Source: Gammaproteobacteria bacterium (GTDB lineage: Bacteria; Pseudomonadota; Gammaproteobacteria; Poriferisulfidales; Poriferisulfidaceae). From it: a stretch of 46,352 bases of DNA. Under the pieces are notes generated by a model. That model was not told the origin of the DNA. It saw nothing but the letters and a program-made list of their open reading frames with translations, and did not search any database. Position numbers and translations under genes: made by a program. Position 1 is the stretch's first letter. Each line of letters starts with the position of its first letter. The stretch covers positions 1 to 46,352 of the forward strand of contig JAPONY010000026.1 of NCBI GenBank assembly GCA_026713705.1, given 5' to 3'. Positions 6,221-39,125 of the stretch are shown in pieces.

Positions 6221-6245
6221 TGATTGCCACGATTGTCGGCAATCA
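6221..6245. terminator. Inverted repeat between convergent lpxH and RloB-like gene
   Basis: TGATTGCC (6221-6228) and GGCAATCA (6238-6245) form perfect 8-bp arms around a 9-nt loop. The right arm covers the stop codon of the RloB-like gene. There is no strong T-run, so a factor-independent terminator is possible but not certain. Confidence 0.35.
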
Positions 6246-6875
6246 GGAATCGGGTGGTTTCAGCGACTGCAAATAGCTGACTAGTTCATGGATTTCGGTG
6301 GACGGATTGGGCTCTTCGGTTTCTTGTGCCTCATCCATGGCGCGAAGGGCTCTGGCCTTGGCGGCCTCAAGCCGGCTTTCAAGCGCCGGATAGATTCCTT
6401 CCGTGGCTTTGGCGTATTCCGGCAGATATTTGCACAGGTCGCCGAGGCAGTTCTCCGCCGGGCTCCGGTTGCCGGCCTTCACATAAGGCTTGCGTGAATA
6501 GCGGAAATGAAGCAACAGCCAATACTCGAAACAAGGCCACGACCGGGCAAGAGTCAGGCCGCTTGCCTCGGCTTCGTTGCCGGCTCGGGCAAAAGTAGAA
6601 TGCTCGTCCCGGTCGAATACGCAGAACACCCGGTCGTATTCACTCCCTTTGCGGCGTTCCCTTGCGCGGATTCTTTTTGCGTGCCGAACCACCGTGAGCG
6701 GGTCGGACCCGAGCCCGGCCACCGTGACGCTGGCGTCCCCGAGCTCGTTGCAGACCTTGAGTTCTTTCAGATAGGACGGTTCGGTTTCCTTGCCTTCGCA
6801 GACGATAAGCACGCGATCATGGAATTCATGTTTGGGTTGGATTGCCCGTGTGTAATGTCGCGGGCGACGGGCCAT
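6243..6875 (-). CDS. RloB-like protein with TOPRIM-type acidic motifs (defence pair, subunit 2)
   Basis: The 210-residue product has the RloB-family N-terminus: a basic lead, then VLIVCEGKETEPSYL (Glu27, Gly28) and, about 60 residues on, VFCVFDRDE (Asp88, Asp90). An EG followed by a DxD is the metal-binding pattern of TOPRIM nucleases, so a nuclease effector role is likely but not proven. It starts 3 bp after the stop of the ATPase gene on the same strand, so the two are almost certainly made together. Such ATPase plus RloB pairs occur in restriction-linked loci (rloA/rloB of Campylobacter) and in the AbiL phage-exclusion system; the same logic is seen in OLD and PARIS. Which of these is closest cannot be told by eye. 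Confidence 0.75.
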   Translation of the reverse strand: MARRPRHYTRAIQPKHEFHDRVLIVCEGKETEPSYLKELKVCNELGDASVTVAGLGSDPLTVVRHAKRIRARERRKGSEYDRVFCVFDRDEHSTFARAGNEAEASGLTLARSWPCFEYWLLLHFRYSRKPYVKAGNRSPAENCLGDLCKYLPEYAKATEGIYPALESRLEAAKARALRAMDEAQETEEPNPSTEIHELVSYLQSLKPPDS

Positions 6876-6878
6876 GGG

Positions 6879-8132
6879 TCAGATTCCCGATGCGACCCCA
6901 AGCGGCTGGACGCGGGGCAGTGCGCCGTAGCGGCCGGTGAGATAGGCCCGTTCCAGGTTGTCCACTCCCTTGCGGGGACGAAAGTCGGTCAGCGGGAACA
7001 GACGGGTCTCTTGGCGCTGGCCGCATTCGCAGAGCCAGATCTGGTCGCGCCGGAGGATATCCTGGTCCAGGATGGACGTGTCGTGGGTCGAGAACACGAG
7101 TTGCGCTCCATGTGCATTGATCCGAGGGTCGTGAAACAGGTCGACCAGGAACTTGACCAGCTTGGGGTGCAGGTGCTCATGCAGTTCGTCCACCACAAGC
7201 ACATGGCCGTTCTTCAATGCATTGAGCCATGGTGCCGCCAGCGCGAAGATTTTCCGCGTCCCGTCGGATTCTTCCCGGAGTTCGAGTTCGGTGGATTCGC
7301 CTCGCCCGGCATCGTGTTTCAACCAGACTCTTGAAATTTTTTCGCGCTCGAATTCCCTTGCGACCTGCTCCCTGATGGTCGGGGGCATGTCGGCGGGGAG
7401 CATGTCCTGAACCAGATTTTCCTCGGTGACCCGGAGGTCGGAAATCCGCAGGCCGGCAGCCGTCAGGAAATGGAGGAGGCCGGCGGTTCCGTTCTTTCGG
7501 CAGAAAGCGAGAGAGGACGCGCAGTTTGAGGCGTCCGCCCCGAGAACCTGGAGCGTGGCGGCGAACCAGTCGTGAACCGACTTCAACTGTTCGCTGTTGA
7601 GCATGGTTGCCGTGGACAGGAACAATGCGTCCGGGCGGGTGGCGCGACGCCAGACATCCTTGTCGCCCTGCAATTTGCCGCCCAGTTTCCAGGTGTCGCC
7701 CTCGCGCAGGAACCAGGTCTGGACCCGTCCGTTTGGCCAGGCATAGAGCCATTCATCGACGACGGTGCTCTGGCGCAGAGAAAATCCGTACTGATAGCGC
7801 ACGCCGTCGATGATGCAGGCGACCTCGAGCACGGTGGGCCGGGTTTTGCTGTCGGGGGCGAACAGGAACGGGGTCGTATGGGCGGCACCCGGCTCGGTGC
7901 CCGAGCGCAGGACGAATGTCCGCATGAGTTTCAGCGCTTCAATGAAGTTGGTCTTGCCGGCCGCGTTGGCACCGTAAATCGCAGCGGAATGAAGAAGCGG
8001 GCAGAGCTGTCCAGTCAGCGGAGGCTCCGAGAGATGTGTTCCCCGGTGCTCCTTCGCAGGGGTGGCCCTGAGACTGAGCAGGGCTTCGCCCTTGATGGAC
8101 TTGAAATTTTCTACGGAAAAACCTATCAACAT
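6879..8132 (-). CDS. AAA family (SMC/OLD-like) ATPase, RloA-like (defence pair, subunit 1)
   Basis: The 417 residues begin with the typical strand MLIGFSVENFKSIK and carry Walker A GANAAGKTN (about residues 54-62), an ABC-type signature ESDGTRK (about 294-300) and Walker B HVLVVDELHEHLHP, followed by a switch histidine in FSTHDTSILD. This is the layout of AAA_15/AAA_21 ATPases paired with TOPRIM or other nucleases in phage defence. It probably senses infection and controls the RloB-like partner 3 bp downstream; that is inferred from the family. Upstream lie about 240 bp of non-coding DNA, strongly AT-rich near the gene, with a palindrome right before the start. Confidence 0.75.
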   Translation of the reverse strand: MLIGFSVENFKSIKGEALLSLRATPAKEHRGTHLSEPPLTGQLCPLLHSAAIYGANAAGKTNFIEALKLMRTFVLRSGTEPGAAHTTPFLFAPDSKTRPTVLEVACIIDGVRYQYGFSLRQSTVVDEWLYAWPNGRVQTWFLREGDTWKLGGKLQGDKDVWRRATRPDALFLSTATMLNSEQLKSVHDWFAATLQVLGADASNCASSLAFCRKNGTAGLLHFLTAAGLRISDLRVTEENLVQDMLPADMPPTIREQVAREFEREKISRVWLKHDAGRGESTELELREESDGTRKIFALAAPWLNALKNGHVLVVDELHEHLHPKLVKFLVDLFHDPRINAHGAQLVFSTHDTSILDQDILRRDQIWLCECGQRQETRLFPLTDFRPRKGVDNLERAYLTGRYGALPRVQPLGVASGI

Positions 8133-12826: not shown

Positions 12827-12931
12827 TATAGCGTTTTGTGCAGGGCGATTCCGTTTTTGTGGCTGGCGAAAGTGATGACGCGGAATGCCTGCATTGCGCT
12901 GGTTTCTCCCCTTTACTGAATCATGTCTGTA

Positions 12932-12952
12932 AATCCGCTTATAATTCGGATT
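12932..12952 (+). promoter_or_regulatory. Candidate promoter and operator of the left AbiE module
   Basis: AATCCG (12932-12937) and CGGATT (12947-12952) form an inverted repeat around a perfect TATAAT at 12940-12945. It lies 66 bp upstream of the AbiEi start. AbiEi-type antitoxins are known to repress their own promoter by binding inverted repeats, so this is a sensible operator. No strong -35 is seen. Confidence 0.45.
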
Positions 12953-13017
12953 CTCGTACATTAAAGTATGATTCAACTGATTGACTGGTTTCCATGGAAG
13001 GCGACGGGAATGATGTC

Positions 13018-13842
13018 ATGATCGCAAATCGCCGTACCTCGCTCTCTGCCTGGGTGGCGGACCGCCTCTCGGCAAACCGCCTCACTTTTTCGCGGGAAGA
13101 GGCAATGCGGGAATCCGGGATAGGCCATGGGGCCTTTCTCGATGCCGCGGAACGGCTCCAGAGGCGGCAGCACCTGGTCTGCCCGCGGCGCGGCTTTTAC
13201 GTGATCGTTCCGCCGCAGTTCGTCTCGTGGGGCGCGCCACCGCCGTCTTGGTACATCGACGACCTGATGCGGTTCGAGCGTTGTGCCTACTACGTCGGCC
13301 TGTTCAAGGCGGGGGAATTCCATGGGGCGACGCACCAGGCGGTCATGGAGTTTCAGGTCGTCGCCGGCAAGCGGCTGCCGAGATTGCGCGTGGGGCGGTC
13401 TCTGGTCGCGTTCCACTACCGCAAGGACATCGCCCCGGTTCTCCAAGGCGTGACAAGACGCAATACCCAAACCGGCACCATGAACGTCTCGTCGCCGGAA
13501 CTGACCGCCTTGGACCTCCTGCGCCGCCGCTACCTGGCGGTCGGGGCCGATAGCGTGGCAACAGCCCTGGCCGACATGGGAGGGAAAATCGACGGAGACG
13601 AACTGGCGGTGTTGTCAGGATCGTTCGAGAAGCCGGTGGCGCAGCGCCTGGGCTACCTGCTTGAGCGGCTCGGATTTGCGGATCAGGCGGCCCCCCTGAA
13701 TGCCGCGCTTTCCAGGCGGGATCCCGGTTGGGTCGAGCTTTCTCCGTTCAAGGCGATCTTCACGGATATCATGCCGGCCCCGCTGGAGCGGAACCGGAAA
13801 TGGCATGTGGTCACGCGCCACGCACTGGAACCGGATTGGTGA
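13018..13842 (+). CDS. AbiEi-family antitoxin (type IV toxin-antitoxin), left module
   Basis: A 274-residue protein with an N-terminal helix-turn-helix region (TFSREEAMRESGIGHGAFLDAAERL) followed by RRQHLVCPRRGFYVIVPP, and a mid-region (YYVGLFKAGEFHGATHQ, VSSPELTALDLL) typical of AbiEi antitoxins that also act as repressors. The AbiEii-type toxin gene follows with a 1-nt overlap (TGATG). I chose ATG 13018, which has a weak GGGA 8 bp upstream; ATG 12994 would add eight residues but has no ribosome-binding site. The gene is fairly GC-rich, close to the core composition. Confidence 0.8.
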   Translation: MIANRRTSLSAWVADRLSANRLTFSREEAMRESGIGHGAFLDAAERLQRRQHLVCPRRGFYVIVPPQFVSWGAPPPSWYIDDLMRFERCAYYVGLFKAGEFHGATHQAVMEFQVVAGKRLPRLRVGRSLVAFHYRKDIAPVLQGVTRRNTQTGTMNVSSPELTALDLLRRRYLAVGADSVATALADMGGKIDGDELAVLSGSFEKPVAQRLGYLLERLGFADQAAPLNAALSRRDPGWVELSPFKAIFTDIMPAPLERNRKWHVVTRHALEPDW

Positions 13843-14660
13843 TGGTTCCCCTCTCGAACGTGATCGCCTGGGCCGAGACGACCCCGTGGTCGGATCTGAA
13901 CAAGATCGAACAGGATCTGATCCTGTCCCGCGCAATCGTCGCGTTGTTCGAAGACCCTTCTTTGCGCCGGCAGTTGCGCTTCCGGGGCGGCACCGCGCTG
14001 GGCAAGCTTCATTTTCCGGCGATATACCGGCTTTCCGAAGACATCGATCTCGCTCGAACCGTCGAAGGCCCGGTCGGCCCGATTCTGGATCATATCCGTT
14101 CGGTCCTCGAACCCTGGCTCGGGAAAGCCCGGCGCGACCTGAAGCGGACTTCGGCCAGGCTGAAGTTCCAGGTTCCGGCAGAAGACGACCCGGAATTGCA
14201 GATCGGGGTGAAGGTCGAGGTCAATACGGTCGAGACCGACGCGTATGATCCACCGGCGCAGGTTCCTTTCAGGGTCGAGAACCCGTGGTTTTCCGGAGCC
14301 GCAGAGGTTGCGACCTTTTCCCGCGAGGAAATGCTGGCCACCAAATTGCGTGCCCTGCTCCAGCGGGACAAGGGGCGGGACCTTTTCGATCTGGCCCACG
14401 GCCTGGAGGTGTTCGAGGATCTTGATGCCGACCGGATTGTCCGGTGCTTGGGTTTTTATCTCGACCGGGCGGGCTTGAGCATCAGCCGCGCCGAAGCCGA
14501 ACGCCGCATGTTCGACAAGCTTGCGCGTTCCACGCTTGCGCACGATATCCGGCATCTGCTGCCGGCGGTCGAGGCGGCCCGCATCGACGGCGGGGCGGTC
14601 AGGACCGCGTTTACAATGGTTTTCACGGGCCTGATTTCCAGACTCCCGGGAAAGCCTTAG
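13842..14660 (+). CDS. AbiEii-family nucleotidyltransferase toxin, left module
   Basis: The 272-residue product (from the ATG that overlaps the antitoxin stop) has the nucleotidyltransferase core of AbiEii toxins: FRGGTALGKLH (Gly49-Thr51) and RLSEDIDL (Asp67, Asp69), then an acidic strand VKVEVNTVE and the downstream block EMLATKLRALLQRDKGRDLFDL. These toxins block growth; relatives transfer nucleotides to tRNA. It is made together with the antitoxin and lies 50 bp before zorA on the same strand, so read-through into Zorya is possible. Confidence 0.82.
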   Translation: MVPLSNVIAWAETTPWSDLNKIEQDLILSRAIVALFEDPSLRRQLRFRGGTALGKLHFPAIYRLSEDIDLARTVEGPVGPILDHIRSVLEPWLGKARRDLKRTSARLKFQVPAEDDPELQIGVKVEVNTVETDAYDPPAQVPFRVENPWFSGAAEVATFSREEMLATKLRALLQRDKGRDLFDLAHGLEVFEDLDADRIVRCLGFYLDRAGLSISRAEAERRMFDKLARSTLAHDIRHLLPAVEAARIDGGAVRTAFTMVFTGLISRLPGKP

Positions 14661-14710
14661 GCCCGGACTGCCGAGCTCGCCGATCATTTCGGGATAGAGG
14701 TACCCCAGCC

Positions 14711-16582
14711 ATGAACAATTCGTTCGAGCCGATACTTTCTTTCGGCGGAGAGATAGTCGATTTCATTCTCAAAATAGCCTTTGTGATTACGGGCAAAGGT
14801 GCGCCTGGCCTAGTGTCGCTGGCATTGGTCTTGGTTCTGGTATTGTTGGTTATCTGGTACGAAAGATCCACAAGACAGTTTCATCGCGCGGTCACTACTG
14901 CTCGACCGATTATCCGGAGCAAGGAGAGGAGGCATATCACCAACGAAGATTTGATTGCTATTGATAAGGAATTTACCGGGCGCAAGCAAAGTAGCCCGAG
15001 TTGGAGAGCCTTAGCTACCGCATGGGACGAATTCAGGGAGACAACGGTCTCTCCGGAACACGAAGCGGACTCTCTGCGCAACACCGTGCGTCCCGGGGTT
15101 TTTTTCAATCGGGAAGAGCTTGGGCTGGAGAGTGGAATCTGGCGACAGGTTCCGGCGTTGTTTATTTCCATCGGGCTCTTCCTGACGTTCTTGGGTCTTG
15201 TTGCCGCCCTTGCCCAGACAGGCGCAATTATTGACACTGGATCAGGTGTCGGCAACGCCGCCACGGCAGAAGCCCTGAAAAAACTGCTGGGTGTGGCCAG
15301 CGCAAAATTTATTATGTCCCTGACAGGGCTGATGTGTTCAATCGCGTTCACGTTGGAGTTGCGATACGCAACGATACGAACAGATCAGGCGCTGCATGAC
15401 TTGTGCGCGGATATCGAGCGTGGGTGCGACTTCATGAGCGAGCAGGATTTGTTGCGGCAAATGTTAGACAAGCTTAGGGAACAGGCAGATCACCTGAAAT
15501 TATTCGGCACGGAACTGGTGGCTCAGGTCGCAAAGCCGCTCAGAGAAGAGTTGCCGGAGGCCATTCGCGCGTCGTTCCACGAATCACTCGAACAGGTGAT
15601 GGGGCCCGCGATGGAGAAAATCTCGCAGGGCACGAGCCAAAGCATGGATTCTTTGGCCGGAAAAGTGGGTAGCCAGATTACGGATGGTGTCCATGACTCG
15701 GTGCGGGAGATGAACGAGGCTATGGGTAGTGCGGTACAGAGTTTCAATGCTACAGCGGGTCGTTTGGATCAAACAGTTGGTTCGATAGGCGGACGCATTG
15801 ACGAGGCGGTGCAATCGATCCATAGCATATCTTCAGAGGGTGCCCAGAAGATTGGGGACGCCAGTCGTGCCATGGCCGAAACAGCAGAAGCGCTGATGCA
15901 GACGGTTCAATCAGGCATGAAGGCTTCGGCAGAGGAGAGTGCGCGGGAAATCGAGTCCGCCGGGAAAGAAATGGCATCAGGGGTCGGTAGCGTTACGTCT
16001 GCAATACGTGAGGGCATCCTTGAACCCATGAATGAATTGATCCTGCAGACCCGGAATCTTGCATCTCAAATTGAGGTGGCAACAGGTCATGTCGGGCAAT
16101 ATGCAGATTCGGTCGAGGGTAGTGCGGCTACCGTCAAGTCAGCAAACAGCGAATTGACCAAGTCTGCCGAGGTGCTGGCAAACGTGGCCATTCCCGTCAG
16201 GGACACCGTCCAGGCCATGGGAAACCAGGTGGAAGAGGTTTCCACAGTCATGCTGTCCAGTGCCAAGCAGACGACGGAACACATGGCGGCGACCTTGAGA
16301 GGGGCCCGTGAATCGATAGAAGCGTCTCAGATTGCGGTGCGGGAAGGGCTCGATGCCCTCAAGGGCGCTGTGGCTGGATTCCGGGAAGTCTTGGGTCGCT
16401 ATCACGAAATCGACCGCAGTCTGGGCGGCGCATTCGAAAAAATCGAAACTACCGTTGCATCCAACATTGCGGAATTTTCCACGTTCCAACGCAAGCTAAA
16501 TGAGGAATTGGGGGAGGCACTCAATCGATTGCAGACCATCCTCGATCAGGCTGAGCCTTTCACGCCGCGCCGGAACGAGTGA
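14711..16582 (+). CDS. zorA: Zorya system membrane protein ZorA (MotA/ExbB-like motor with long tail)
   Basis: ZorA pentamers with ZorB form a proton-driven inner-membrane motor that senses phage attack. I start at ATG 14711 (MNNSFEPIL), giving 623 residues. Helices: about 31-50, 148-168 (ALFISIGLFLTFLGLVAAL) and 200-219 (FIMSLTGLMCSIAFTLEL), matching the MotA/ExbB domain. From about residue 240 the protein is a long, regular, helix-rich tail of some 380 residues (repeated Ala/Ser/Glu heptad-like sequence), the cytoplasmic tail characteristic of ZorA. zorB follows 6 bp later. The tail would be shorter than that of the best-studied E. coli ZorA. Confidence 0.88.
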   Translation: MNNSFEPILSFGGEIVDFILKIAFVITGKGAPGLVSLALVLVLVLLVIWYERSTRQFHRAVTTARPIIRSKERRHITNEDLIAIDKEFTGRKQSSPSWRALATAWDEFRETTVSPEHEADSLRNTVRPGVFFNREELGLESGIWRQVPALFISIGLFLTFLGLVAALAQTGAIIDTGSGVGNAATAEALKKLLGVASAKFIMSLTGLMCSIAFTLELRYATIRTDQALHDLCADIERGCDFMSEQDLLRQMLDKLREQADHLKLFGTELVAQVAKPLREELPEAIRASFHESLEQVMGPAMEKISQGTSQSMDSLAGKVGSQITDGVHDSVREMNEAMGSAVQSFNATAGRLDQTVGSIGGRIDEAVQSIHSISSEGAQKIGDASRAMAETAEALMQTVQSGMKASAEESAREIESAGKEMASGVGSVTSAIREGILEPMNELILQTRNLASQIEVATGHVGQYADSVEGSAATVKSANSELTKSAEVLANVAIPVRDTVQAMGNQVEEVSTVMLSSAKQTTEHMAATLRGARESIEASQIAVREGLDALKGAVAGFREVLGRYHEIDRSLGGAFEKIETTVASNIAEFSTFQRKLNEELGEALNRLQTILDQAEPFTPRRNE

Positions 16583-16588
16583 CGGACG

Positions 16589-17422
16589 GTGGCTACCGCA
16601 ACCGAAGGCAAGCGCCGCCGTCACGAGGAAGGAGAATCCGTCTTTGTCTCAATGACGGATTTGACGGTCTCATTCCTGTTCATCATCCTCATTCTTCTGG
16701 CATTTTTCGCGACCCAGTTCAAACCGGAAGACAATGTGACAGATCCGCTTGCTTCCTATCTGGAGGCGGCGTCTTCCATGCGTGCCGACCTTCTGGAAGG
16801 TTTGGCGGAGCGGATTCGCCAAAGGATTCCGGGAATTCGCGTGACGGTCGTCGCAGCTGATGGAGTAATCCGTTTTCGCGGCGATGACCTGTTCCAGTCT
16901 GGAGAGTGGCGTATCCGATCAGGCAGTACGGCAGAACGGGTGGCGCATGCGGTCGGCGATGCTTTGGCTGACACCCTGCCTTGTTACACGGTGGGGGATC
17001 AGGCAGATTTCGATGTAAGTTGCAACGAGGCTTTCGCGGTGATCGAGACAATCCAAATCGAGGGACATACTGACAATGTTCCTATCAGCGCGTTGCGCCG
17101 AAGTATGGAAAAGATGCTCGACAACCGCGACCTGTCTGCTCGCCGAGGTGCCGAGACCCTGCGCGCCACAACCGACCGTTACCGGCCTGACTTGATGGGA
17201 TTCCTCAACCTTCATGGACAATCTGTTCTGTCTTTTGCCGGCTACGGTGCCATGCGGCCTATAGAACCCGGGTCGACGCCAGAGGCTCGTGCTGCCAATC
17301 GCAGAATCGACGTCCGTTTTATCCTGCAAACGCCCCAGAATCTTCACCAGGTCAAAGAAATCAAGGAGCGGTTGACTCGGAACCGCCCATCCCTTCCAAC
17401 CGTCCAGGAACAAACACGATGA
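16589..17422 (+). CDS. zorB: Zorya system protein ZorB (MotB/OmpA-like stator)
   Basis: 277 residues, GTG start 6 bp after zorA. One N-terminal helix carries the proton-binding aspartate: SMTDLTVSFLFIILILLAFF, with Asp24. The C-terminal half is an OmpA-like peptidoglycan-binding domain: IEGHTDNVPI, then NRDLSARRGAETLRAT, SFAGYGAMRPI and AANRRIDVRFI. ZorB dimers anchor the motor to the cell wall and conduct protons. The stop overlaps the zorC start (ATGA), so translation of zorB and zorC is coupled. Confidence 0.9.
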   Translation: MATATEGKRRRHEEGESVFVSMTDLTVSFLFIILILLAFFATQFKPEDNVTDPLASYLEAASSMRADLLEGLAERIRQRIPGIRVTVVAADGVIRFRGDDLFQSGEWRIRSGSTAERVAHAVGDALADTLPCYTVGDQADFDVSCNEAFAVIETIQIEGHTDNVPISALRRSMEKMLDNRDLSARRGAETLRATTDRYRPDLMGFLNLHGQSVLSFAGYGAMRPIEPGSTPEARAANRRIDVRFILQTPQNLHQVKEIKERLTRNRPSLPTVQEQTR

Positions 17423-18762
17423 CCTTGCCGTTGTCAGAGAAGATAAGACGACCACATCCGCTTCGGCTGCCAGTGCTGCGCGAGCCGGACCGGGTCATCC
17501 GGGAGGCGGAGCGGATTCGCCGCCGCTGGCCGGATGCAGGAGCCGAGGATCCTGATGCCGACCCAGAAGCACTGGCCATCGAAATGGATCGTAGGCGCAG
17601 GAGTAACGAGTGGCAGGGGTTTTACTGGATGGATGCGACGCGCACCGCGGTTGCATTCTTGGGAAGCCGTTTATGGGGAGAGATTCGTTTCTCGGAATTG
17701 TTTGAGTTTTTGCTACACCAGGTTGGTGCGGACGGCAACCTTGTCTATACGCATGCGGTTTTCCGCAAATACCTTGAGACTTTCGATTCCAGGTCCGACC
17801 GGAGCCGGAAATTGGCAAGTGTGCTGAAAAGGAACTGGAAGAAAGGAGAATTATCGGTTGGGCAGTGGGTTGAGGATTTGTGCATTTTCGAGCCGCACCA
17901 TGCTCCGGGAGAGGTTGCAAAATATATGGCCAGTCAGGGCGAGCCTTTTCAGGCTTTACGCCAATCCGGCGTGGAATCTCCTCATGGGGAGGGCCTTATG
18001 CAGGAGGCGCACCTACGTTTCGTTGAAGCACTGGAGCCGTGCCTCCACAGAGGCGAATCCGAATCTGTTGAAAAAATGCTTGGCTGGCTCAAGCCTATGG
18101 ACGCCAAACATCCATTGCAGGGAGTCGGGGCTGGCAAGGCGATGGATGCCCTGTTGTCGGCTTGGGTGCAGCACGACCCTCCTCCCTCGATAAAGGAGAT
18201 CATTAAATCTCGCCTTGTCGATGCCTATGGCGACCCGCGCATCAATCCCGCGGGGGCGTGGTCATCGTGCTCGGAGGAGGCTAGGCGTGTGATGATGAAA
18301 TGGATGATTGGGGCTACGATCAAGATGTTTTTCGATATTGTCACGGAAGCGGAAAGATCGCATATGTGGCGCAACCGAAAGGGTCTCTGGATAGACCTTT
18401 ACGAGGAAGACCGTATTACGGAAGCGTGGTTTGCCCTGAGTGCATCCGGCATGGCTATTGCACAGCGTTTGGCCCGTGAATCGGAAAGTGCTACCTTACA
18501 GTGCGCGACGAACCAGTCCCGGGACGGTCAAGATCGCCGCAAATGTTTGTTGATTATGAAGGTGGATGGCCGATGGGTTGTCGAAGGGTCTCATAGTTTC
18601 AAGACACACATCTTTCCTCGCGGCGACAATTCCCCGGTTACTCCGTATGAGGATTCCTACACTTGTGAGCAATTCAGGAGTTACAGGGGGCCTCACGAAC
18701 CTCTCCGTTTCGTCCATCACAGCAACTGGAGGAATAAGGTGTTGGGCGAACTCTCGCGATGA
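17419..18762 (+). CDS. zorC: Zorya system cytoplasmic protein ZorC (EH-signature type)
   Basis: 447 residues between zorB and zorD, overlapping each by 4 nt. In the type I Zorya system this slot holds ZorC, a DNA-binding protein with an EH-signature domain. The C-terminal half contains candidate family residues: EAERSHMWRNRKGLWIDLY, VVEGSHSFK with an E and an H close together, and CEQFRSYRGPHEPLRFVHH. No enzyme motif is seen. The identification rests on position, size and these residues; sequence conservation in ZorC is modest. Confidence 0.8.
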   Translation: MTLPLSEKIRRPHPLRLPVLREPDRVIREAERIRRRWPDAGAEDPDADPEALAIEMDRRRRSNEWQGFYWMDATRTAVAFLGSRLWGEIRFSELFEFLLHQVGADGNLVYTHAVFRKYLETFDSRSDRSRKLASVLKRNWKKGELSVGQWVEDLCIFEPHHAPGEVAKYMASQGEPFQALRQSGVESPHGEGLMQEAHLRFVEALEPCLHRGESESVEKMLGWLKPMDAKHPLQGVGAGKAMDALLSAWVQHDPPPSIKEIIKSRLVDAYGDPRINPAGAWSSCSEEARRVMMKWMIGATIKMFFDIVTEAERSHMWRNRKGLWIDLYEEDRITEAWFALSASGMAIAQRLARESESATLQCATNQSRDGQDRRKCLLIMKVDGRWVVEGSHSFKTHIFPRGDNSPVTPYEDSYTCEQFRSYRGPHEPLRFVHHSNWRNKVLGELSR

Positions 18763-21700
18763 CGAGCATCAAACACACCCGCACTGAAGAGGCTGTCGTT
18801 TTTACTGCAGAAGCGGCAGATCCGGGTTTTTTGCATCGCTTATTCGGCGGCACGAAACAGATTGAGAATATCGACGATTGGGTGGCTGGCGACGTGGCTC
18901 GCTGCGATGCGCTTGGCACGTTGCGCATGTACGGTGAAGCCAACCCCGGCGAAGTACGGTTTGAAGACGAACGGCTTGTTGCAAGTCATGCAGCTATCGC
19001 AGCCCTTCGTACCAGCCAGGCACGTTCTCTGGGTCTTCCTGCTCGTCCGCCTTTTGCGTTTTCCGCTGACGCCAGCGGAGTCATTGGTTCGCCTAACTTC
19101 AAGTTGGTCACACGCTGGCTGGACGCAGGGCGACCGGTTCCCGCGCATCGAAGCGGTACCTTCTTGGAGACCTCGCAAGGAGAATTCCTAATCCCGGAAC
19201 CGCTCTACTCCGCCGTTGAGTTGTCTGAACGCTTTGACGCAGGCAAGGTGGATTTGCCGGAGCATTGGGCGGTCCTTTCCCACTTCCGCAATCTGCTGGA
19301 ACCAAGTATCGACAGTGACAGCAGCCCGATTGAATTGAGTCGGTTTTTGCAGGGCTTGCGAATCTACACGGGCGTGGCCTTGTCGCTTGCCCTTGATGAG
19401 GTTGATGGAGAAATTGGCTTCGAGCCGATACTGTTCGATTCGGAAGCATCCAGAAAAGCGTTGGACGAAGGTTTGCCGCTCACCGAACGCGATGGAATGC
19501 TTCCGGAAGATCTTCTCCACGCGTTCCAGAAAGATCCAGCAACAGGCTTCCGGGCCTTTGATGCGGCGAAGCGCAGTTATTTACTTGGGCAAAACACTTA
19601 TCTGGTTGTCGACGATGATATCGAAGTGGCTCTTCGAGTGGTCCGCGAGAAGCAAAGGGCGGGTCCAGAAGAGCGCCGGGCCTTTGCCGCTAACCCACGT
19701 GCGGCGATTACTGACCGCCTGATTCAGGAAGCATCGGAAGATATGGGTGCGCAGAATCAGGAATCTGCTGCCGTTCGCGAAGAGGAGATCGAAGCCCGCG
19801 TGGCATCTTTGTTTGTCGAGACGCCGGAATATGCTGACCGGGCCATAGGGATAGGCGTATGGGAAAAGCCGGAGCTGGATTTTCTGCCGTATGCTCCTAG
19901 CGTGTGGTTGCCGGAGACTTTTGCGCTGAACCTTGACGGCATCTGGGTTGAATTGGATCAGGATTCGGTACAGGTATTGAGGGAGGAAGTCACTCAGGCA
20001 ATTGATGCGTCGCAGCCTGAAGTTAAGTATCGGGGGCAATGCATCTCGGCAACGGAAGAAGTGCGCCAAACATTGGCAGGCGTTATTGGGAAGGAAGATC
20101 CGAAGGCCACAGTGGAAGAGGAAGGCGAGTCAGATACATCCGACGATGATAATAAGGACATACTTGAAAAGCCAGATAAGACCGTGGTGGTGGTCCATCA
20201 GAATTATGTCGAAGAAAACTGGCGCCCCGAAATACCCTCGAGGGAAGTACGCATTCATCTCGAACCGCCATCCAAAATCAGCACAGAACTGTTAGGCCAC
20301 CAGAAGAAAGCCCTCAAGTGGCAGGTTGAGGCGTGGCGAGCAGGTCTTCCTGGCGTACTCAACGCGGATGATCAGGGTCTCGGTAAAACGCTTCAAACGC
20401 TCGCTTTCCTTGCTTGGCTGCAAACCAATATGGCCGAAAGTTCGCACGACCGTCGCAAACCGGTTCTTGTCGTCGCGCCGAAGGGATTGCTTCGCACTTG
20501 GGAGAGTGAGGAAGAGGCCCATTTGAAAGGAACTCGATTGGGTGCACAAATCAAGGCGTATGGACATGATCTGAAAAACTTGCGCAAACCCGGTCTCACT
20601 GGTAAGGATACGGACGATGGCGTGCCGCGGCTCGACTTTGGAAATCTGCGGTTATCCATCTTGAAAGGAAAAGGACACCAGAACTGGGTGCTGACTACGT
20701 ATGAGACGCTGGCGAACTACCAGCACAGTTTCAGGCAGATTGACTTTTCTGTCGTCGTGTTTGACGAAATACAGAAGATCAAGAATGTTGCGACTCTGGC
20801 ATCGCTTGCGGCACGCGGGATCAAGGCTGATTTTAGGGTCGGCCTCACTGGGACGCCCATCGAGAATCATGTTGCCGACCTCTGGGCCATCATGGATGCA
20901 GTGGCTCCAGGCCGTCTTCGCTCAATGAAGGAGTTTGTCGAACGGTACAGGATTGTTACCGAGGAAGGGATGGATGAGTTGCATGGACGCCTCTTCAAGG
21001 AGGTGGAAAGCAACGGGGAGCGCTATCCGCCGATTGCGCAACGGAGGTTCAAGGAAGTCGAGATTGAATGCCTGCCCAGAAAAGACTATCGCGTACATCC
21101 GCTGACGATGCCAGATAGTCAGGCATCGGCCTATGAGGCCGCGCGGCAGCATCTGGTTGATGGAGGACGGGGGTCCGGACTCAGGTTGCTGCACCACATC
21201 CGTTCGGTTTCGCTCCATCCCGAGCCGCCGGAAACAGCGACAAGCGTGGATGACTACTTTGTGCACTCGGCACGCTTCCTGTCTATGCGAAATATTCTGA
21301 GGCGCATTCATGCAAACAGGGAACGGGCATTGATTTTTACGGAAGATCGGCGGGTGCAGGCATTTATAGCGCAATGGGCCAGATCCAAGTTCGGTCTCGC
21401 TGATGTTCCGATCATCAACGGTGCTACTTCGATTGTTAGACGTCAGCAGTACGTGAACCGCTTCCAGGAACACGTTGAAAACGACCGAGGCTTCGATATC
21501 ATGATTCTGTCGCCGCGAGCAGCAGGCGTGGGCTTGACGCTGACGGCGGCGACTCATGTGATTCATTTAAGTCGTTGGTGGAACCCCGCGGTTGAGGAGC
21601 AGTGCAATGATCGGATATACCGCATCGGCCAAAAAAGCGATGTGACTGTGCATCTGCCGCTCGCGATCCATCCGACCTATCAGGAAATCTCGTTCGATTG

Positions 21701-22211
21701 CGTACTGAATAATCTGATGCGGAGGAAAACTTCGTTAGCCCGTGCGGCTCTTTGGCCTCCGACCAACAGCGATTTTGATGTCGGTATGCTAATAGCTGGA
21801 ATTAATGGTGCGGAACCGATTAACCTGCCGGATGTCGATGGGCTTGACTGGGCAGGTTTTGAAGACTGGATCATGGAACGGGCTCGCGAAAGCGGGGATT
21901 GGATGGTTTCGGAGACGCCGCGTTCTGGAGATGGAGGTGCTGATGCCGTGCTGAGGCATTGCCGCCGACGCAACACGGCTGCATTGATTCAGGCAAAGCA
22001 CACTTCCGATCGTTCCCGCCTGATTAATGATGCGGCGGTTCGAGAAGTGGTTCACGCGGCGAAACGGTACGATGTAGAAAATCCGCAACTGGTCGTCATC
22101 ACCAATGCACGTGGTTTTACTCGTAAGGCTCAGGATGCGGCGCTGGAGCATTTCGTCACGCTCCTTGACCGCGACCGGCTTGCACTTTGGCCAAACCATG
22201 TGCTTGGCTGA
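18759..22211 (+). CDS. zorD: Zorya system helicase-nuclease ZorD (SNF2 plus Mrr-like domain)
   Basis: 1150 residues. After a long N-terminal region comes an SNF2 helicase: motif I DQGLGKTLQT (about residue 537), motif II VFDEIQKIKN (about 668; DEIQ rather than DEAH), motif III LTGTPIENH, and motifs V-VI SPRAAGVGLTLTAATHV and QCNDRIYRIGQK (about 947). The last 120 residues form an Mrr-type nuclease domain: SGDGGADAVLRH (about 1055) and IQAKHT (about 1076), followed by VREVVHAAKRY and LVVITNARGFT. ZorD degrades phage DNA once the motor fires. The start overlaps the zorC stop (ATGA). All motifs look intact. Confidence 0.9.
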   Translation: MTSIKHTRTEEAVVFTAEAADPGFLHRLFGGTKQIENIDDWVAGDVARCDALGTLRMYGEANPGEVRFEDERLVASHAAIAALRTSQARSLGLPARPPFAFSADASGVIGSPNFKLVTRWLDAGRPVPAHRSGTFLETSQGEFLIPEPLYSAVELSERFDAGKVDLPEHWAVLSHFRNLLEPSIDSDSSPIELSRFLQGLRIYTGVALSLALDEVDGEIGFEPILFDSEASRKALDEGLPLTERDGMLPEDLLHAFQKDPATGFRAFDAAKRSYLLGQNTYLVVDDDIEVALRVVREKQRAGPEERRAFAANPRAAITDRLIQEASEDMGAQNQESAAVREEEIEARVASLFVETPEYADRAIGIGVWEKPELDFLPYAPSVWLPETFALNLDGIWVELDQDSVQVLREEVTQAIDASQPEVKYRGQCISATEEVRQTLAGVIGKEDPKATVEEEGESDTSDDDNKDILEKPDKTVVVVHQNYVEENWRPEIPSREVRIHLEPPSKISTELLGHQKKALKWQVEAWRAGLPGVLNADDQGLGKTLQTLAFLAWLQTNMAESSHDRRKPVLVVAPKGLLRTWESEEEAHLKGTRLGAQIKAYGHDLKNLRKPGLTGKDTDDGVPRLDFGNLRLSILKGKGHQNWVLTTYETLANYQHSFRQIDFSVVVFDEIQKIKNVATLASLAARGIKADFRVGLTGTPIENHVADLWAIMDAVAPGRLRSMKEFVERYRIVTEEGMDELHGRLFKEVESNGERYPPIAQRRFKEVEIECLPRKDYRVHPLTMPDSQASAYEAARQHLVDGGRGSGLRLLHHIRSVSLHPEPPETATSVDDYFVHSARFLSMRNILRRIHANRERALIFTEDRRVQAFIAQWARSKFGLADVPIINGATSIVRRQQYVNRFQEHVENDRGFDIMILSPRAAGVGLTLTAATHVIHLSRWWNPAVEEQCNDRIYRIGQKSDVTVHLPLAIHPTYQEISFDCVLNNLMRRKTSLARAALWPPTNSDFDVGMLIAGINGAEPINLPDVDGLDWAGFEDWIMERARESGDWMVSETPRSGDGGADAVLRHCRRRNTAALIQAKHTSDRSRLINDAAVREVVHAAKRYDVENPQLVVITNARGFTRKAQDAALEHFVTLLDRDRLALWPNHVLG

Positions 22212-22257
22212 AGTTGGCCATTAATGCCCGAAAAACACAGCGCACGAGATTAACACT

Positions 22258-22548
22258 ATGAAGAGACGAACTCCCGGCAAACAGACCAAACGGCAAGAAG
22301 CGGAGATTGCCGCACTCTCGGTCCTTGCCGATGAAGAAATTGATACGAGTGATATTCCCGAGATTCTGGATTGGTCTGGTGCCAAGCGCGGTTTGTTGTA
22401 CCGGTCGGTGAAGCAGGAGACCACGCTGAGGCTGGATGCCGACGTCGTTGCGTGGTTCAAGGCAAATGCCCCTGGTGGACGGGGCTACCAAACCCAGATT
22501 AATCGCGTGCTTCGCGAGTATGTCAAGCGGGCCCTGAGTCAGAAATAA
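22258..22548 (+). CDS. BrnA-family antitoxin-like protein, without BrnT partner
   Basis: 96 residues with the BrnA-type pattern: a basic N-terminus, then DTSDIPEILDWSGAKRGLLYR, VKQETTLRLDADVVAWFKA and a ribbon-helix-helix-like end GYQTQINRVLREYVKRAL. BrnA proteins are DNA-binding antitoxins normally preceded by the BrnT toxin gene; here the gene upstream is zorD and no BrnT-like frame is visible. It starts 46 bp after zorD on the same strand and may be co-transcribed with it. It could be a leftover antitoxin or a regulator serving the island. Confidence 0.7.
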   Translation: MKRRTPGKQTKRQEAEIAALSVLADEEIDTSDIPEILDWSGAKRGLLYRSVKQETTLRLDADVVAWFKANAPGGRGYQTQINRVLREYVKRALSQK

Positions 22549-22622
22549 TACCGGAATCCGGCTGGCGCTTCACAAATTCTCGATGCGTGCAGCAAGATCC
22601 ATCCCTTTCATCCAAAAGGTCG

Positions 22623-22641
22623 TTTCAACGCACCGTTGAAA
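22623..22641. terminator. Inverted repeat between convergent BrnA-like gene and right AbiEii
   Basis: TTTCAACG (22623-22630) and CGTTGAAA (22634-22641) are perfect 8-bp arms with a 3-nt loop, in the 147-bp gap where transcription from both sides meets. No long T-run follows, so a terminator is only suggested by position and shape. Confidence 0.35.
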
Positions 22642-22695
22642 ACGCCATTAACAGTGAAATCCATCCGAATCAGGAAAGGCTCCTGCTTGATGGCT

Positions 22696-23619
22696 TCACA
22701 TCTGGAATTCTTCCCCGGGCCGAACTTCGTAGAGCCGCTTTTGCTTCAACTCCTTGAATAGCCCGACCACGGTCTGGGTCAGGAACCCTTCGAATTTTTT
22801 CTTGCCGAGCGTCCGGTCGTAGATGTCCGATGGCAGGAAGCGTTTCATTTCATTTTTGAATTCCACCCCCGCGACAATGCCGGGCAGCCTTTCCATCATG
22901 TCGTCCAGTGCGTCCGAGTTGCCGGACAACCGATAGTCTTCCATTTTCCGTTGCGCCAGGCCTGGCCGCACGGTCGCGCCCTGCTGCTTGAGCCACCCCA
23001 GGTCCCACACATCCCGGTGCCGGACATACTTATGCGTCGCCGGGAGCGAGATCAACTTGTCCGCCATGATTTCATCAAGCGTTTCGGTAAAGATGAGCGT
23101 GTCGTCATAGCCGTCCGGGAGGAACGCGTAGTTCGCCAGCAACGGGACAGCTTCCTTCGTATAGGCGGGGACATTGGCCACCTCGATCTTGATGCGTTGC
23201 CGGGGCATGCCCCTGCGTCGTGGCGCGGTAATGACGGCGACCTGCCATTTGCGGACGCTCAGCCCGGTGTATTCCGGCTCCTTTTCCAGTTCGGAGGGCT
23301 CCTTGACCCTGACCTCTAGACCATATCTCGAACCGATGTACCCTTCGATACAGTCTTTCATTCTGGCAAGCACAGCCGACGAGAAATCCCGGCCTCCGGC
23401 GAAGTCGAGATCCTCGCTGAAGCGGTTTCCACCGCGGCACAGCCGCAACGATGTGCCGCCCTGAAAAACGAGATTGTCCAGCAGGTTTTCTCGTTCCAGG
23501 CAAAACAGAATGTCGTAGTGAAGCAGTTCCTTTTCGATCACTGGGCGCATGTTCGCGACGCTCGCGTCCTGCATGACGCGGCCGACCAGTTGGGAGAAGT
23601 CTTCCCTAGTGATCTTCAT
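22696..23619 (-). CDS. AbiEii-family nucleotidyltransferase toxin, right module
   Basis: 307 residues with the AbiEii nucleotidyltransferase core: LVFQGGTSLRLC (Gly54-Thr56), NRFSEDLDFAGG (Asp70, Asp72), then IKIEVANVP and the block ETLDEIMADKLISL with RDVWDLGWL. It overlaps the end of the AbiEi-type antitoxin gene by 14 nt. It is only distantly similar to the left toxin (different length and flanking sequence), so the two modules are not a recent duplication. It lies convergent to the Zorya operon. Confidence 0.85.
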   Translation of the reverse strand: MKITREDFSQLVGRVMQDASVANMRPVIEKELLHYDILFCLERENLLDNLVFQGGTSLRLCRGGNRFSEDLDFAGGRDFSSAVLARMKDCIEGYIGSRYGLEVRVKEPSELEKEPEYTGLSVRKWQVAVITAPRRRGMPRQRIKIEVANVPAYTKEAVPLLANYAFLPDGYDDTLIFTETLDEIMADKLISLPATHKYVRHRDVWDLGWLKQQGATVRPGLAQRKMEDYRLSGNSDALDDMMERLPGIVAGVEFKNEMKRFLPSDIYDRTLGKKKFEGFLTQTVVGLFKELKQKRLYEVRPGEEFQM

Positions 23620-24145
23620 CGATCATTTCTTCTTGAATCAGGTGCGTATTGCGGCCGACCCGCCTCAGGTCCCTGCAGGCGGCGGGCGGGCTGGCCATTC
23701 TCAGTGGCCTGCCTACGGTTCGGATGTTGTCGAGGATGCTGCCGACGGCGCGTGCCGTGTGGGTGAACTCGATGACGCCAAAAGGTGTCTTGTACTCGCC
23801 TTTGCGGCCGGTGGTCATGACGGTCAGCCGGTCCATCGGGACCTGCGAGATGACTCCGTACTCGGAAAGCGCCGATTCCAGGCTGATGTAGTTGTACTCG
23901 CCCCGTCGAATGGTTCTGGCGATCTGCTCCAACGTGTCGCCGCCGATGTTTCTCGACAGTGCGTAGACATAGATGCGTTTGGCGACGCGCAGCAGGATAT
24001 CCTTCGATACAAGGCGGTCGAGGCCGGCCTGAAGGGTGCGCCGACTGTCCTCATGAAACACTTTGGCCAGGTCGGCGTGGGCATAGACATAGTGTCCGCG
24101 CGCATCAAACGCCGACAGACGTTGAATCGCAATAGTCTGGTTCAT
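23606..24145 (-). CDS. AbiEi-family antitoxin, right module
   Basis: 179 residues from ATG 24145 (MNQTIAIQRLSAFD), which has AGGG six bases upstream; the frame is open to ATG 24166, which would leave almost no leader after the promoter. An N-terminal winged-helix region (ADLAKVFHEDSRRTLQAGLDRLVSKDILLRVAKRIYVY) is followed by the AbiEi-type block YNYISLESALSEYGVISQ and FGVIEFTHTAR. It is shorter than the left AbiEi, resembling the compact class of this family. It likely represses its own promoter, which contains a perfect palindrome. Confidence 0.82.
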   Translation of the reverse strand: MNQTIAIQRLSAFDARGHYVYAHADLAKVFHEDSRRTLQAGLDRLVSKDILLRVAKRIYVYALSRNIGGDTLEQIARTIRRGEYNYISLESALSEYGVISQVPMDRLTVMTTGRKGEYKTPFGVIEFTHTARAVGSILDNIRTVGRPLRMASPPAACRDLRRVGRNTHLIQEEMIDEDH

Positions 24146-24168
24146 CAGAAACCCTATAAGTAACATAT

Positions 24169-24198
24169 AAAACTATTTTTATATAGTTTTAGTGTCAA
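24169..24198 (-). promoter_or_regulatory. Promoter with palindromic operator, right AbiE module
   Basis: On the minus strand a perfect -35 TTGACA (24198-24193) is followed after 17 bp by TAGTTT (24175-24170). The spacer and -10 are covered by an inverted repeat, AAAACTAT (24169-24176) and ATAGTTTT (24183-24190), with a 6-bp centre. This places a dimeric repressor site exactly over the promoter. The region is extremely AT-rich. Confidence 0.6.
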
Positions 24199-24278
24199 TA
24201 TAATAGCACAGGCATCCGAATATTCTAGTGCCGCCAAAAACGCGCCCTGACTTTTGGTTGCTCAGGATGCGATCTCTT

Positions 24279-25574
24279 CTATACGGGCGAAGTCTTTTCC
24301 TGATGCGGCTCCAGCCTTTCCGGCCGGTACAGCAGGAATTCCCCGACCGTGAAGACCGAACCGAACACCACCACGGTTCCCTCCTGCCCGGCCCTCGAAG
24401 CCGCCTCGCGGTAGGCTTCCGTGATAGTCGGGTGGACATGCACCTTGGACAGCTTGCAGGATTCCGCCAGTATGCGCAGGGTCTGAAGCGGCATGGCGCG
24501 GGGAGACTCCACCTTGCTCAGGTGCCAGCTTTCGACCAGCGGCCCCAACGGCCCCAACATGTTCGCCACGTCCTTTTCCTGCAGCGCAGAGAAGACCGCA
24601 TGCAGCGGGCGTCCGGGCCGGTAGCGGCGGAGATTCCGGGCCAGGTTGACGGCACCCTCCGGGTTGTGCGCAATGTCCAGCACGGTATCCACCGGCTCCT
24701 CAAGGATCTGGAATCGCCCGATCAGGCTGACATTCTCAAGGGCGTGGCGGATGGCCTCCGGGTCGATCATTCCGAGATGCTTCAACACGGTCAGGGCACC
24801 GGCCGCGTTGTTCAACTGCACTTTTCCGGGCAGCTGGTGCGGGGTCGGCAGTTCCAGTTTCATCCCGTCACGGTGGTGGTAGCGCCAGCGGTCGGGGTCG
24901 AGAGGCTGCGCGGAGAAGTCCCGGCCGATGCGCTGCATCGGTGCGCCCAAGCGGCGCGCCTGGTCCGGCAGGCTGACGGGCGGGTCGGGGTCCACGCAGA
25001 CGACCGGCCGCCCCGGGCGCATGATTCCGGCCTTCTCGCGCCCGATCGATTCCCGGGTCCGACCCAGCCATTCCGTGTGGTCGATGCTGATGCTGGTAAT
25101 CAGGGCGACATCGGCGTCCCACAGGTTGACCGCGTCCATCCGTCCTCCGAGCCCGACCTCAAGGATCGCATAGTCGATTTCCTCTTCCCGGAAAATCGAC
25201 AGGGTGGCCAGGGTGCCGTATTCGAAAAACGACAGGCTGGTCTCGCCGCGTGCTTGTTCGACCCGCTCGAAGGCGGCGCATAATCGCTCGTCGTCCACCT
25301 CCACCCCGTCAATGCGGACGCGTTCGTTGTAGCGGAGGAAATGCGGCGAAGTGTAGGCGCCCACCCGCCCGTGCGGGCGCAGCATGGCTTCCAGCAGGGC
25401 GACGCTGGAGCCCTTTCCGTTGGTTCCGGCGACGGTGATGATCTTGAAATCCGGCGATGCCAGCAGGTTCATGCGCCGGGCCACCACCCGGATCCGCTCC
25501 AGCCCCAGGTCGATGCTGGTGGTGTGCAGGCGCTGCTGCCATTCGACCCACTCGGACAGGGAGGAAAATCGCAT
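24279..25574 (-). CDS. folC: Folylpolyglutamate synthase / dihydrofolate synthase
   Basis: Adds glutamate to dihydropteroate and to folates. The 431 residues show the Mur-ligase fold: the ATP-binding loop VAGTNGKGSSVALLEA near residue 48, the TSPHFLRYNERVRIDG segment, SIDHTEWLG, and in the second half LDIAHNPEGA. It follows accD by 31 bp. The next genes in the usual operon (SPOR gene, cvpA, purF) lie 11.4 kb away beyond the defence island. The folate gene folP is absent from its usual place in this window. Confidence 0.95.
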   Translation of the reverse strand: MRFSSLSEWVEWQQRLHTTSIDLGLERIRVVARRMNLLASPDFKIITVAGTNGKGSSVALLEAMLRPHGRVGAYTSPHFLRYNERVRIDGVEVDDERLCAAFERVEQARGETSLSFFEYGTLATLSIFREEEIDYAILEVGLGGRMDAVNLWDADVALITSISIDHTEWLGRTRESIGREKAGIMRPGRPVVCVDPDPPVSLPDQARRLGAPMQRIGRDFSAQPLDPDRWRYHHRDGMKLELPTPHQLPGKVQLNNAAGALTVLKHLGMIDPEAIRHALENVSLIGRFQILEEPVDTVLDIAHNPEGAVNLARNLRRYRPGRPLHAVFSALQEKDVANMLGPLGPLVESWHLSKVESPRAMPLQTLRILAESCKLSKVHVHPTITEAYREAASRAGQEGTVVVFGSVFTVGEFLLYRPERLEPHQEKTSPV

Positions 25575-37869: not shown

Positions 37870-38031
37870 GACTGTCCTCAATCCGGCCTTTCCCTTACGG
37901 TCAACCCGCAGTCGGAACTTTCTTTTCAGATCGGCTTTGGTGAACTTCGGATCCTTGTCGGGAGCCGGGCCCATGCCGAGCAGGGCACGGGTCGCCTTGT
38001 CGAGTTTCGCCTGTGTTCTATCTCGCTTCAT
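37867..38031 (-). CDS. Small basic protein coupled to the restriction gene
   Basis: A 54-codon frame starting MKRDRTQAKLDKATRALLG; its ATG overlaps the stop of the restriction gene (ATGA), the tight coupling typical of real genes in operons. The product is strongly basic (many Lys/Arg) without recognised motifs. Its stop codon falls in the left inverted repeat. I do not recognise it. It may help regulate or bind DNA or RNA, or be a chance frame; the coupling favours the former. Confidence 0.45.
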   Translation of the reverse strand: MKRDRTQAKLDKATRALLGMGPAPDKDPKFTKADLKRKFRLRVDRKGKAGLRTV

Positions 38032-39125
38032 TGTTCGTTCGCAACTTGGTCCCAAGCCATTTTTGTCTCGTAGCCTATGTCATCATCCTTCTCCAGCATA
38101 GAGACAAAGTTTTCGATGAAATCATCTGTGTTGGATACAAGCCTCAAATAATATTTCAAGGTGGCAGCAACGCCATTTACTATGATCTCGCATCCGTGAT
38201 TGATTCTGGCATCTGTGGTTAGTTTGGTGATTTCTTCTATGTCATTCAGAATTTCATTCGTACTCAAGATGTAATACCGCTTCACGGAAGTCCTTTTGAC
38301 CTTTTCAATGGTGGATGAAACGAGATCAGGGTTGATTTGGATGCCGTGCTTGATTTCAACCGCCTCGACAATCTTGGAATCATGCTGAAGGTCAATGTCT
38401 CCGTGTCGCCCCGTTTTCTGGTCTGCAGCATTATGCGGAAGGAGGGGTAGCAGGTGATGATCTCTGTACCTTCCGACTTCCTTTACAAGACTCGTATATG
38501 CGGCAAATACAGCAATAACCGGAACTCTGGATAGCCCGGATGACTTCTGGCTCCAAAGTTTCTCGATCAATGATACAACTGAACCGATTGATTTATTCTT
38601 TGGCCTCGACAGGGCGATGTTTTGAGACCTTTCACGGAGCGAGACCAGTTGGCTGAATGTTTCTTTTAAGCACTCTCTGGCAAGTTCTGATTTCTGCTCA
38701 ACCTGATCTATCAGGCGAAGGAAATCATCTTTGATGATTGCTGGTTTGATTTTTCCCGGATAGTCCAAAGTGTAGGGTGATGCTTGCTCAAGGCTTCTGG
38801 TCAGCCATCCAGACCCACTGGCCATATGAGGAAAATCGTTATCCCGAAGAAATGGGGTTACATGTCTGCTATCAAGGCCACGTCCAGAAAACCCACCCGG
38901 CATGTTGGCCTGATGGAATCTTACATCCTGATCTGGCTTCATTACTTTCTTCACTAGCAAAGTTATCAACACAGAAAGAACGCCGATGTTTTCCCCGGCT
39001 TCGACTCTGGCCATAATGCGGTCAATCCTGTCCAAGTCCTCTTGTTGCAAAAGAGACCCTTCCCTGTTATCAGTTTGCAAATGACTCAACGTGTCTTGTA
39101 AGACTCGTGTGGCATCATGCGGCAT
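38028..39125 (-). CDS. Type II restriction endonuclease (PD-(D/E)xK)
   Basis: 365 residues, overlapping the methyltransferase gene by 11 nt. A conserved N-terminal block (PGGFSGRGLDSRHVTPFLRD, then SGSGWLTRSLEQ and YTLDYPGKI) is shared among several type II enzymes and recalls the SacI-family domain, though I cannot confirm the subfamily. The likely catalytic site is HGDIDLQH (Asp243, Asp245) followed by VEAVEIKHG (Glu257, Lys259), a PD-(D/E)xK arrangement. The recognition sequence is unknown. GC content is low compared with the core. Confidence 0.8.
   Translation of the reverse strand: MPHDATRVLQDTLSHLQTDNREGSLLQQEDLDRIDRIMARVEAGENIGVLSVLITLLVKKVMKPDQDVRFHQANMPGGFSGRGLDSRHVTPFLRDNDFPHMASGSGWLTRSLEQASPYTLDYPGKIKPAIIKDDFLRLIDQVEQKSELARECLKETFSQLVSLRERSQNIALSRPKNKSIGSVVSLIEKLWSQKSSGLSRVPVIAVFAAYTSLVKEVGRYRDHHLLPLLPHNAADQKTGRHGDIDLQHDSKIVEAVEIKHGIQINPDLVSSTIEKVKRTSVKRYYILSTNEILNDIEEITKLTTDARINHGCEIIVNGVAATLKYYLRLVSNTDDFIENFVSMLEKDDDIGYETKMAWDQVANEQ

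Follow-up and report, generated by a model that had tools for sequence, protein, structure and literature searches.

Positions 14,711 to 22,211 of the window, the whole 46,352-nucleotide stretch of DNA that was analysed, constitute a complete, apparently intact and divergent type I Zorya operon of the known family. By ancestry and layout the operon is very probably a type I Zorya that works as the studied systems do, and it is likely still to protect the host that now carries it. For the four genes, comparisons of profiles, motifs and structures agree, in line with the sequence-only reading, which had called the system complete. The four zor ORFs are uninterrupted:

14711 to 16582, plus strand: zorA, ATG start, 623 aa; MotA/ExbB/TolQ-like motor subunit with a long helical cytoplasmic tail
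16589 to 17422, plus strand: zorB, GTG start, 277 aa; MotB-like subunit
17419 to 18762, plus strand: zorC, ATG start, 447 aa; EH_Signature protein
18759 to 22211, plus strand: zorD, ATG start, 1150 aa; SNF2 ATPase with a C-terminal Mrr nuclease domain

The profile searches for each subunit that had been proposed as a check on the system were run, and the type I Zorya models of PADLOC were top-scoring for all four proteins (E 1e-79 to 0): ZorA1 PDLC00600 for ZorA (E 1.2e-124), ZorB1 PDLC00612 for ZorB (E 1.2e-79), ZorC1 PDLC00619 for ZorC (E 2.4e-106) and ZorD1 PDLC00629 for ZorD (E=0). The adjacent zorA and zorB are MotA-like and MotB-like, their best models are type I, and these score far above the type II or III models. 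Zorya type II or III, with ZorE or with ZorF and ZorG, was thus rejected, since genes 3 and 4 are ZorC and ZorD and ZorA and ZorB are type I by score. ZorA and ZorD score under the NCBIfam cut-offs, which marks the lineage as divergent. For ZorD, the 275.8 bits obtained with the equivalog NF041790 lie below its 1500-bit cut-off; the model is narrow, and the shortfall is a matter of divergence, not of exclusion from type I.

The arrangement of the genes is equally characteristic. A spacer of 6 nt separates zorA from zorB, and zorB/zorC and zorC/zorD each overlap by 4 nt (ATGA). The same overlap occurs at zorB/zorC in 80 of 96 related operons and at zorC/zorD in 31 of 92, counts that are somewhat biased because starts in the relatives were picked close to the upstream stop. 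About 90 related operons have, as a rule, the order zorA-zorB-zorC-zorD with short overlaps, and this recurrence shows that the arrangement is not due to chance. The spacing suggests that the zor genes are translationally coupled. Coupling throughout had been claimed; the spacings and the two 4-nt overlaps were described correctly, whereas zorA and zorB do not overlap.

The subunit that the sequence-only reading had doubted, encoded at 17419-18762, is ZorC, on the concordant evidence of profile, EH_Signature domain (Pfam PF15611, E 1e-41) and fold. An AlphaFold2 model (pLDDT 90, 30 sequences) superposed on E. coli ZorC (8r68) across 352 residues at Z 19.9, against Z 6.9 for the runner-up; the predicted fold thus clearly matches E. 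coli ZorC alone. A sequence search of the PDB with ZorC gave no match, and the SNF2 part of ZorD also matches the DpdE and DrmD models, so that one might suspect a misassignment in which ZorC is an unrelated helical protein or zorD the SNF2 gene of a Dpd or DISARM system. This suspicion is hardly credible in view of the ZorC scores just given, of the same neighbours in about 90 operons and of the PADLOC scores of ZorD, which amount to 1080 bits for ZorD1 as opposed to 230 bits for DpdE and 53 bits for DrmD. The assignments to DpdE (Dpd) and DrmD (DISARM) were rejected on these scores.

ZorD has the following domains:

20298 to 21629, plus strand: SNF2 and Helicase_C domains of ZorD (PF00176, 3.6e-39; PF00271, 6.5e-12)
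21837 to 22184, plus strand: Mrr nuclease domain of ZorD, with GDGGAD at 1057-1062 and QAK at 1078-1080, from motif alignment

The SNF2 motifs are kept (GKT 542-544, DEIQ 669-672, GTPIEN 698-703, R952/R955), the Mrr domain (Mrr_cat, PF04471) scores E 4.2e-15 and 56 bits against a cut-off of 21, and its D...QxK residues are intact. PADLOC and earlier work describe ZorD as a helicase plus an Mrr-like nuclease. Going by predicted domains, this description is true of the ZorD in the window and not of type I as a whole, in which the Mrr domain is optional; the SNF2-plus-Mrr architecture proposed earlier therefore stands for this protein, with the qualification that Mrr is not standard and occurs only in some type I systems. 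In two other operons (L039:3541-7194 and L041:3880-7566, both on the minus strand), ZorD continues at its C-terminus for about 240 further residues, which the profile used does not recognise as Mrr-like. A genome contig search with ZorD alone, a viral contig search with ZorB and a DNA-level search of E. coli genomes yielded nothing.

The motor proteins retain the residues expected to matter. In ZorA, T159, K199, F200, S203 and G206 do not vary among 30 sequences. Its sequence retrieved nothing from the PDB, and its predicted monomer (pLDDT 75, membrane part mostly >85, helical nearly throughout) had as best structure matches four E. coli ZorA entries (including 8qyk/8qyd), followed by Shewanella 8vvn. 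ZorA also contains E107 and E110 (15029-15040) in a W-x-E-F-x-E-T stretch, spaced like the calcium site E86/E89 named in the title of PDB 8qyh, and thus a candidate equivalent of it. ZorB matches PDB 8vvn_B (E 1.8e-12), and two of its features bear on function:

16658 to 16660, plus strand: Asp24 codon of ZorB, the ion-carrying residue, invariant in 13 correctly delimited homologues
17042 to 17302, plus strand: OmpA-like peptidoglycan-binding domain of ZorB, with EGHTD at 158-162 and NRRID at 237-241

The OmpA-like domain is detected weakly by PF00691 (E 1.5e-4, below the cut-off), and its EGHTD and NRRID motifs are conserved in the homologue alignment. The Asp24 proton site and the OmpA domain read from the sequence at first are thus both borne out. 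D24 is named in earlier work, according to which defence in tested systems needs the ZorA tail, D24 and peptidoglycan binding (PMC11890865). No inactivating change was found in the four zor genes, in agreement with the earlier view that all subunits look intact.

The remaining requirement, the ZorA tail, deserves closer attention:

15329 to 16579, plus strand: ZorA tail, the 417 residues that follow the motif KFxxSxxG in the last TM helix

The tail is long and helical, by model and by hydrophobic period, and shorter than in E. coli, as had been noticed (623 versus 729 aa in total, the latter figure taken from the residue numbers in the PDB 8qyy title, 'ZorA delta_435-729, tail tip deletion'). 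Its hydrophobic period is 3.59 with a power of 25 (maximum 10.7 in 500 shuffles), and that of relatives' tails is about 3.55; in the model, folded as a monomer, the tail is of low confidence (pLDDT about 40-72). In the ZorA of about 90 operons, tail residues were counted from the motif K-F-x-x-S-x-x-G in the last TM helix up to the stop. The natural lengths are 284-289, 417 (the window), 453-461, 482-484 and 544-571 residues. The shortest belong to a mainly rhizobial group (L111, L112, L115, L117, L119, L120, L123, L124, L135) whose operons are otherwise mostly complete, and the longest to the group with an Mrr-bearing ZorD. This range qualifies the statement that component sizes are well conserved within a Zorya type (PMC11890865). 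In the clade nearest the window, comprising 60 operons once duplicates and frameshifts were taken out, 49 tails measure 482-484 residues; the window's tail is 66 residues below the mode, a shortfall whose split along the tail varies with the alignment.

Such a shortfall could mean that the operon, although truly type I Zorya by origin, is no longer functional, the short tail breaking signalling and the operon decaying, all the more as tail removal by engineered deletion abolishes defence in tested systems (PMC11890865). We consider this improbable. The genes contain no stop or frameshift and every motif is kept, on which grounds decay by stops or lost motifs was rejected; both ends of the tail are conserved, including the C-terminal QAEPF motif; its helical periodicity far exceeds that of the shuffles; and relatives with tails of 284-289 residues have complete operons. 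The short tail instead looks like an ordinary natural variant of accepted length and not like a defect.

The comparisons suggest that within the lineage tail length hardly varies and that most of its changes amount to whole turns of the helix. Gaps between the tails of close relatives are mostly 4, 7, 11, 18, 22 and 29 residues, which is near whole turns at 3.6 residues per turn. A strict 11-residue unit, suggested by 66 = 6 x 11, was rejected given the period of 3.59 and gaps of 4, 7, 18 and 29; whole turns fit better. Near-fixed length with whole-turn changes would fit a rigid shaft that keeps its helical phase. On a bolder proposal, tail length is a selected ruler, departing from 483 by no more than one residue in most of the clade's operons, changed mostly by whole turns and settled at a few discrete lengths including 417; length and phase would govern how ZorC and ZorD receive the signal, with Mrr as an interchangeable effector module of ZorD. 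We put this forward tentatively, with the chances somewhat against it.

Shared descent accounts for part of the constancy, and the proposition that it accounts for all of it, with no selection on length or helical phase, comes close to an even prospect. The main group consists of related operons, and pairwise counts repeat the same events, so that the whole-turn effect leans on a few common gap lengths and related pairs: the mean phase error is 0.145 turn over all pairs with at least 38% identity and 0.241 turn, about chance, over unique indel lengths. Descent alone sits less easily with the 49 of 60 tails held at 482-484 residues despite a median tail identity of 40% (range 28-100%) inside that group, when the standard deviation of ZorB length across the same operons is 39 residues, or with the closeness of the common indels to whole turns, reflected in the lower of the two phase errors.

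The genomic setting of the operon is that of a defence insertion. The window is one entire contig from a draft genome of 1.94 Mb and 95.6% completeness. The insertion and the elements beside the operon within it are:

12838 to 24321, unstranded: defence insertion of about 11.5 kb between dedD/cvpA and folC, with breakpoints from the empty sites of congeners G401 and G399
12994 to 14660, plus strand: abiEi/abiEii pair (PDLC02282, PDLC02294), 50 nt upstream of zorA
22258 to 22548, plus strand: BrnA-like antitoxin gene (PF14384, 7.1e-16), 46 nt after zorD
22696 to 24166, minus strand: second abiEi/abiEii pair (PDLC02296, PDLC02232)

In G401 and G399 the dedD/cvpA side adjoins the folC side, giving an empty site. 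The site of G398 holds the second AbiE pair, and that of G400 holds other genes together with a 78% identical copy of the BrnA-like gene, at the same hotspot and without Zorya. The interval between dedD/cvpA and folC (with loci L151-L154) is thus a variable defence hotspot in the genus. The insertion is poorer in GC, the zor genes having 54-56% compared with 62-68% in the adjacent core genes, and no ZorC-like gene was found in the 19 other genomes of the order searched. Together with the contents of the congeners' sites, these observations support horizontal acquisition of the zor operon into the hotspot. No integrase was seen, nor a clear repeat at the borders, nor a BrnT partner of the BrnA-like gene. 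Transcripts might be common to Zorya and the first abiEi/abiEii pair, a toxin-antitoxin pair on the same strand; in related zor operons this neighbour is absent. Elsewhere in the window, an RloB-like gene lies beside an AAA_21 ATPase gene (6243-8132, minus strand), an RloA/RloB-like pair near ftsH that is likely a second defence locus, and an N6_N4 DNA methylase gene followed by an unassigned 365-aa ORF (38028-40125, minus strand) is a possible restriction-modification pair.

With gene content and order, domains, key residues, the folds of ZorA and ZorC and the helical tail established here, the operon can be placed among known systems. The E. coli type I Zorya (8qyd/8qyk/8qyy, 8r68, 8qy7) shares all four proteins and matches in the folds of ZorA and ZorC, at low sequence identity. 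ZorC in the window is shorter, matching 8r68 residues 58-468 only. The match between the two ZorD proteins (E 7.5e-68) spans the SNF2 part; it extends to residue 1063 of the 1080 aa of 8qy7, leaving no room for an Mrr domain, unlike in the window. Shewanella sp. ANA-3 ZorAB (8vvn) has ZorB Asp24 and the ZorA core fold in common with the window, but its ZorA (696 aa) has a longer tail and the ZorB proteins match with only about 50 bits. Closer is the PDLC00600/00612/00619/00629 group (L033, L034, L059-L138; Methylobacterium, Bradyrhizobium, Rhodobacterales, Tatumella, Pantoea and others), which shares gene order, a ZorC of about 440 aa and high motif identity, and differs in a ZorD without Mrr, tails mostly of 482-484 residues and ZorB linkers mostly longer than the window's. 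The Mrr-bearing type I operons (L035-L038, L042) have a ZorD ending in the same kind of Mrr and, in some, a similarly short ZorB linker, yet their tails measure 544-571 residues and their ZorD, about 34-37% identical to the window's, forms a separate clade.

A ZorD tree of 71 rows, built by a quick method with the Mrr part left out, places the window as sister, with full support (100), to 59 operons from the PDLC00629 group, which is mainly alphaproteobacterial; by ZorD the window is the deepest branch of that group, in a tree where long branches meet among the outer rows. The Mrr domain is present in the window and in five other rows and in none of the 59 sampled group members; its label needs at least 3 changes on the tree, on which gain is not separable from loss.

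A mechanism may be proposed by analogy with the systems of E. coli, Shewanella, Serratia and Sulfuricurvum, from which motor stoichiometry, peptidoglycan sensing, ion flow, tail signalling, recruitment and cleavage are carried over. ZorA and ZorB would assemble at 5:2 into an ion-driven motor of the inner membrane, which the OmpA-like domain of ZorB would anchor to peptidoglycan. Envelope disturbance at phage DNA entry would let ions flow past ZorB Asp24, ZorA would turn or change shape, and its helical tail would carry the signal into the cytoplasm, where the DNA-binding ZorC and ZorD, an SNF2 motor with a C-terminal Mrr nuclease, would be recruited to cut DNA.

The system is a known one, and its analysis brings two refinements, namely that a tail of this length is nothing unusual in the family at large and that Mrr on ZorD is optional. 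The survey adds a lead worth following, in tails whose length is nearly constant and shifts mostly by whole turns of the helix. These findings bear on how a membrane motor relays the signal of a phage along its tail to proteins that cut DNA. Together with its relatives, the operon offers a natural series in which tails range from 284 to 571 residues and ZorD either has or lacks the nuclease domain; the roles of tail length, helical phase and the nuclease are therefore testable with versions that evolution has already accepted.
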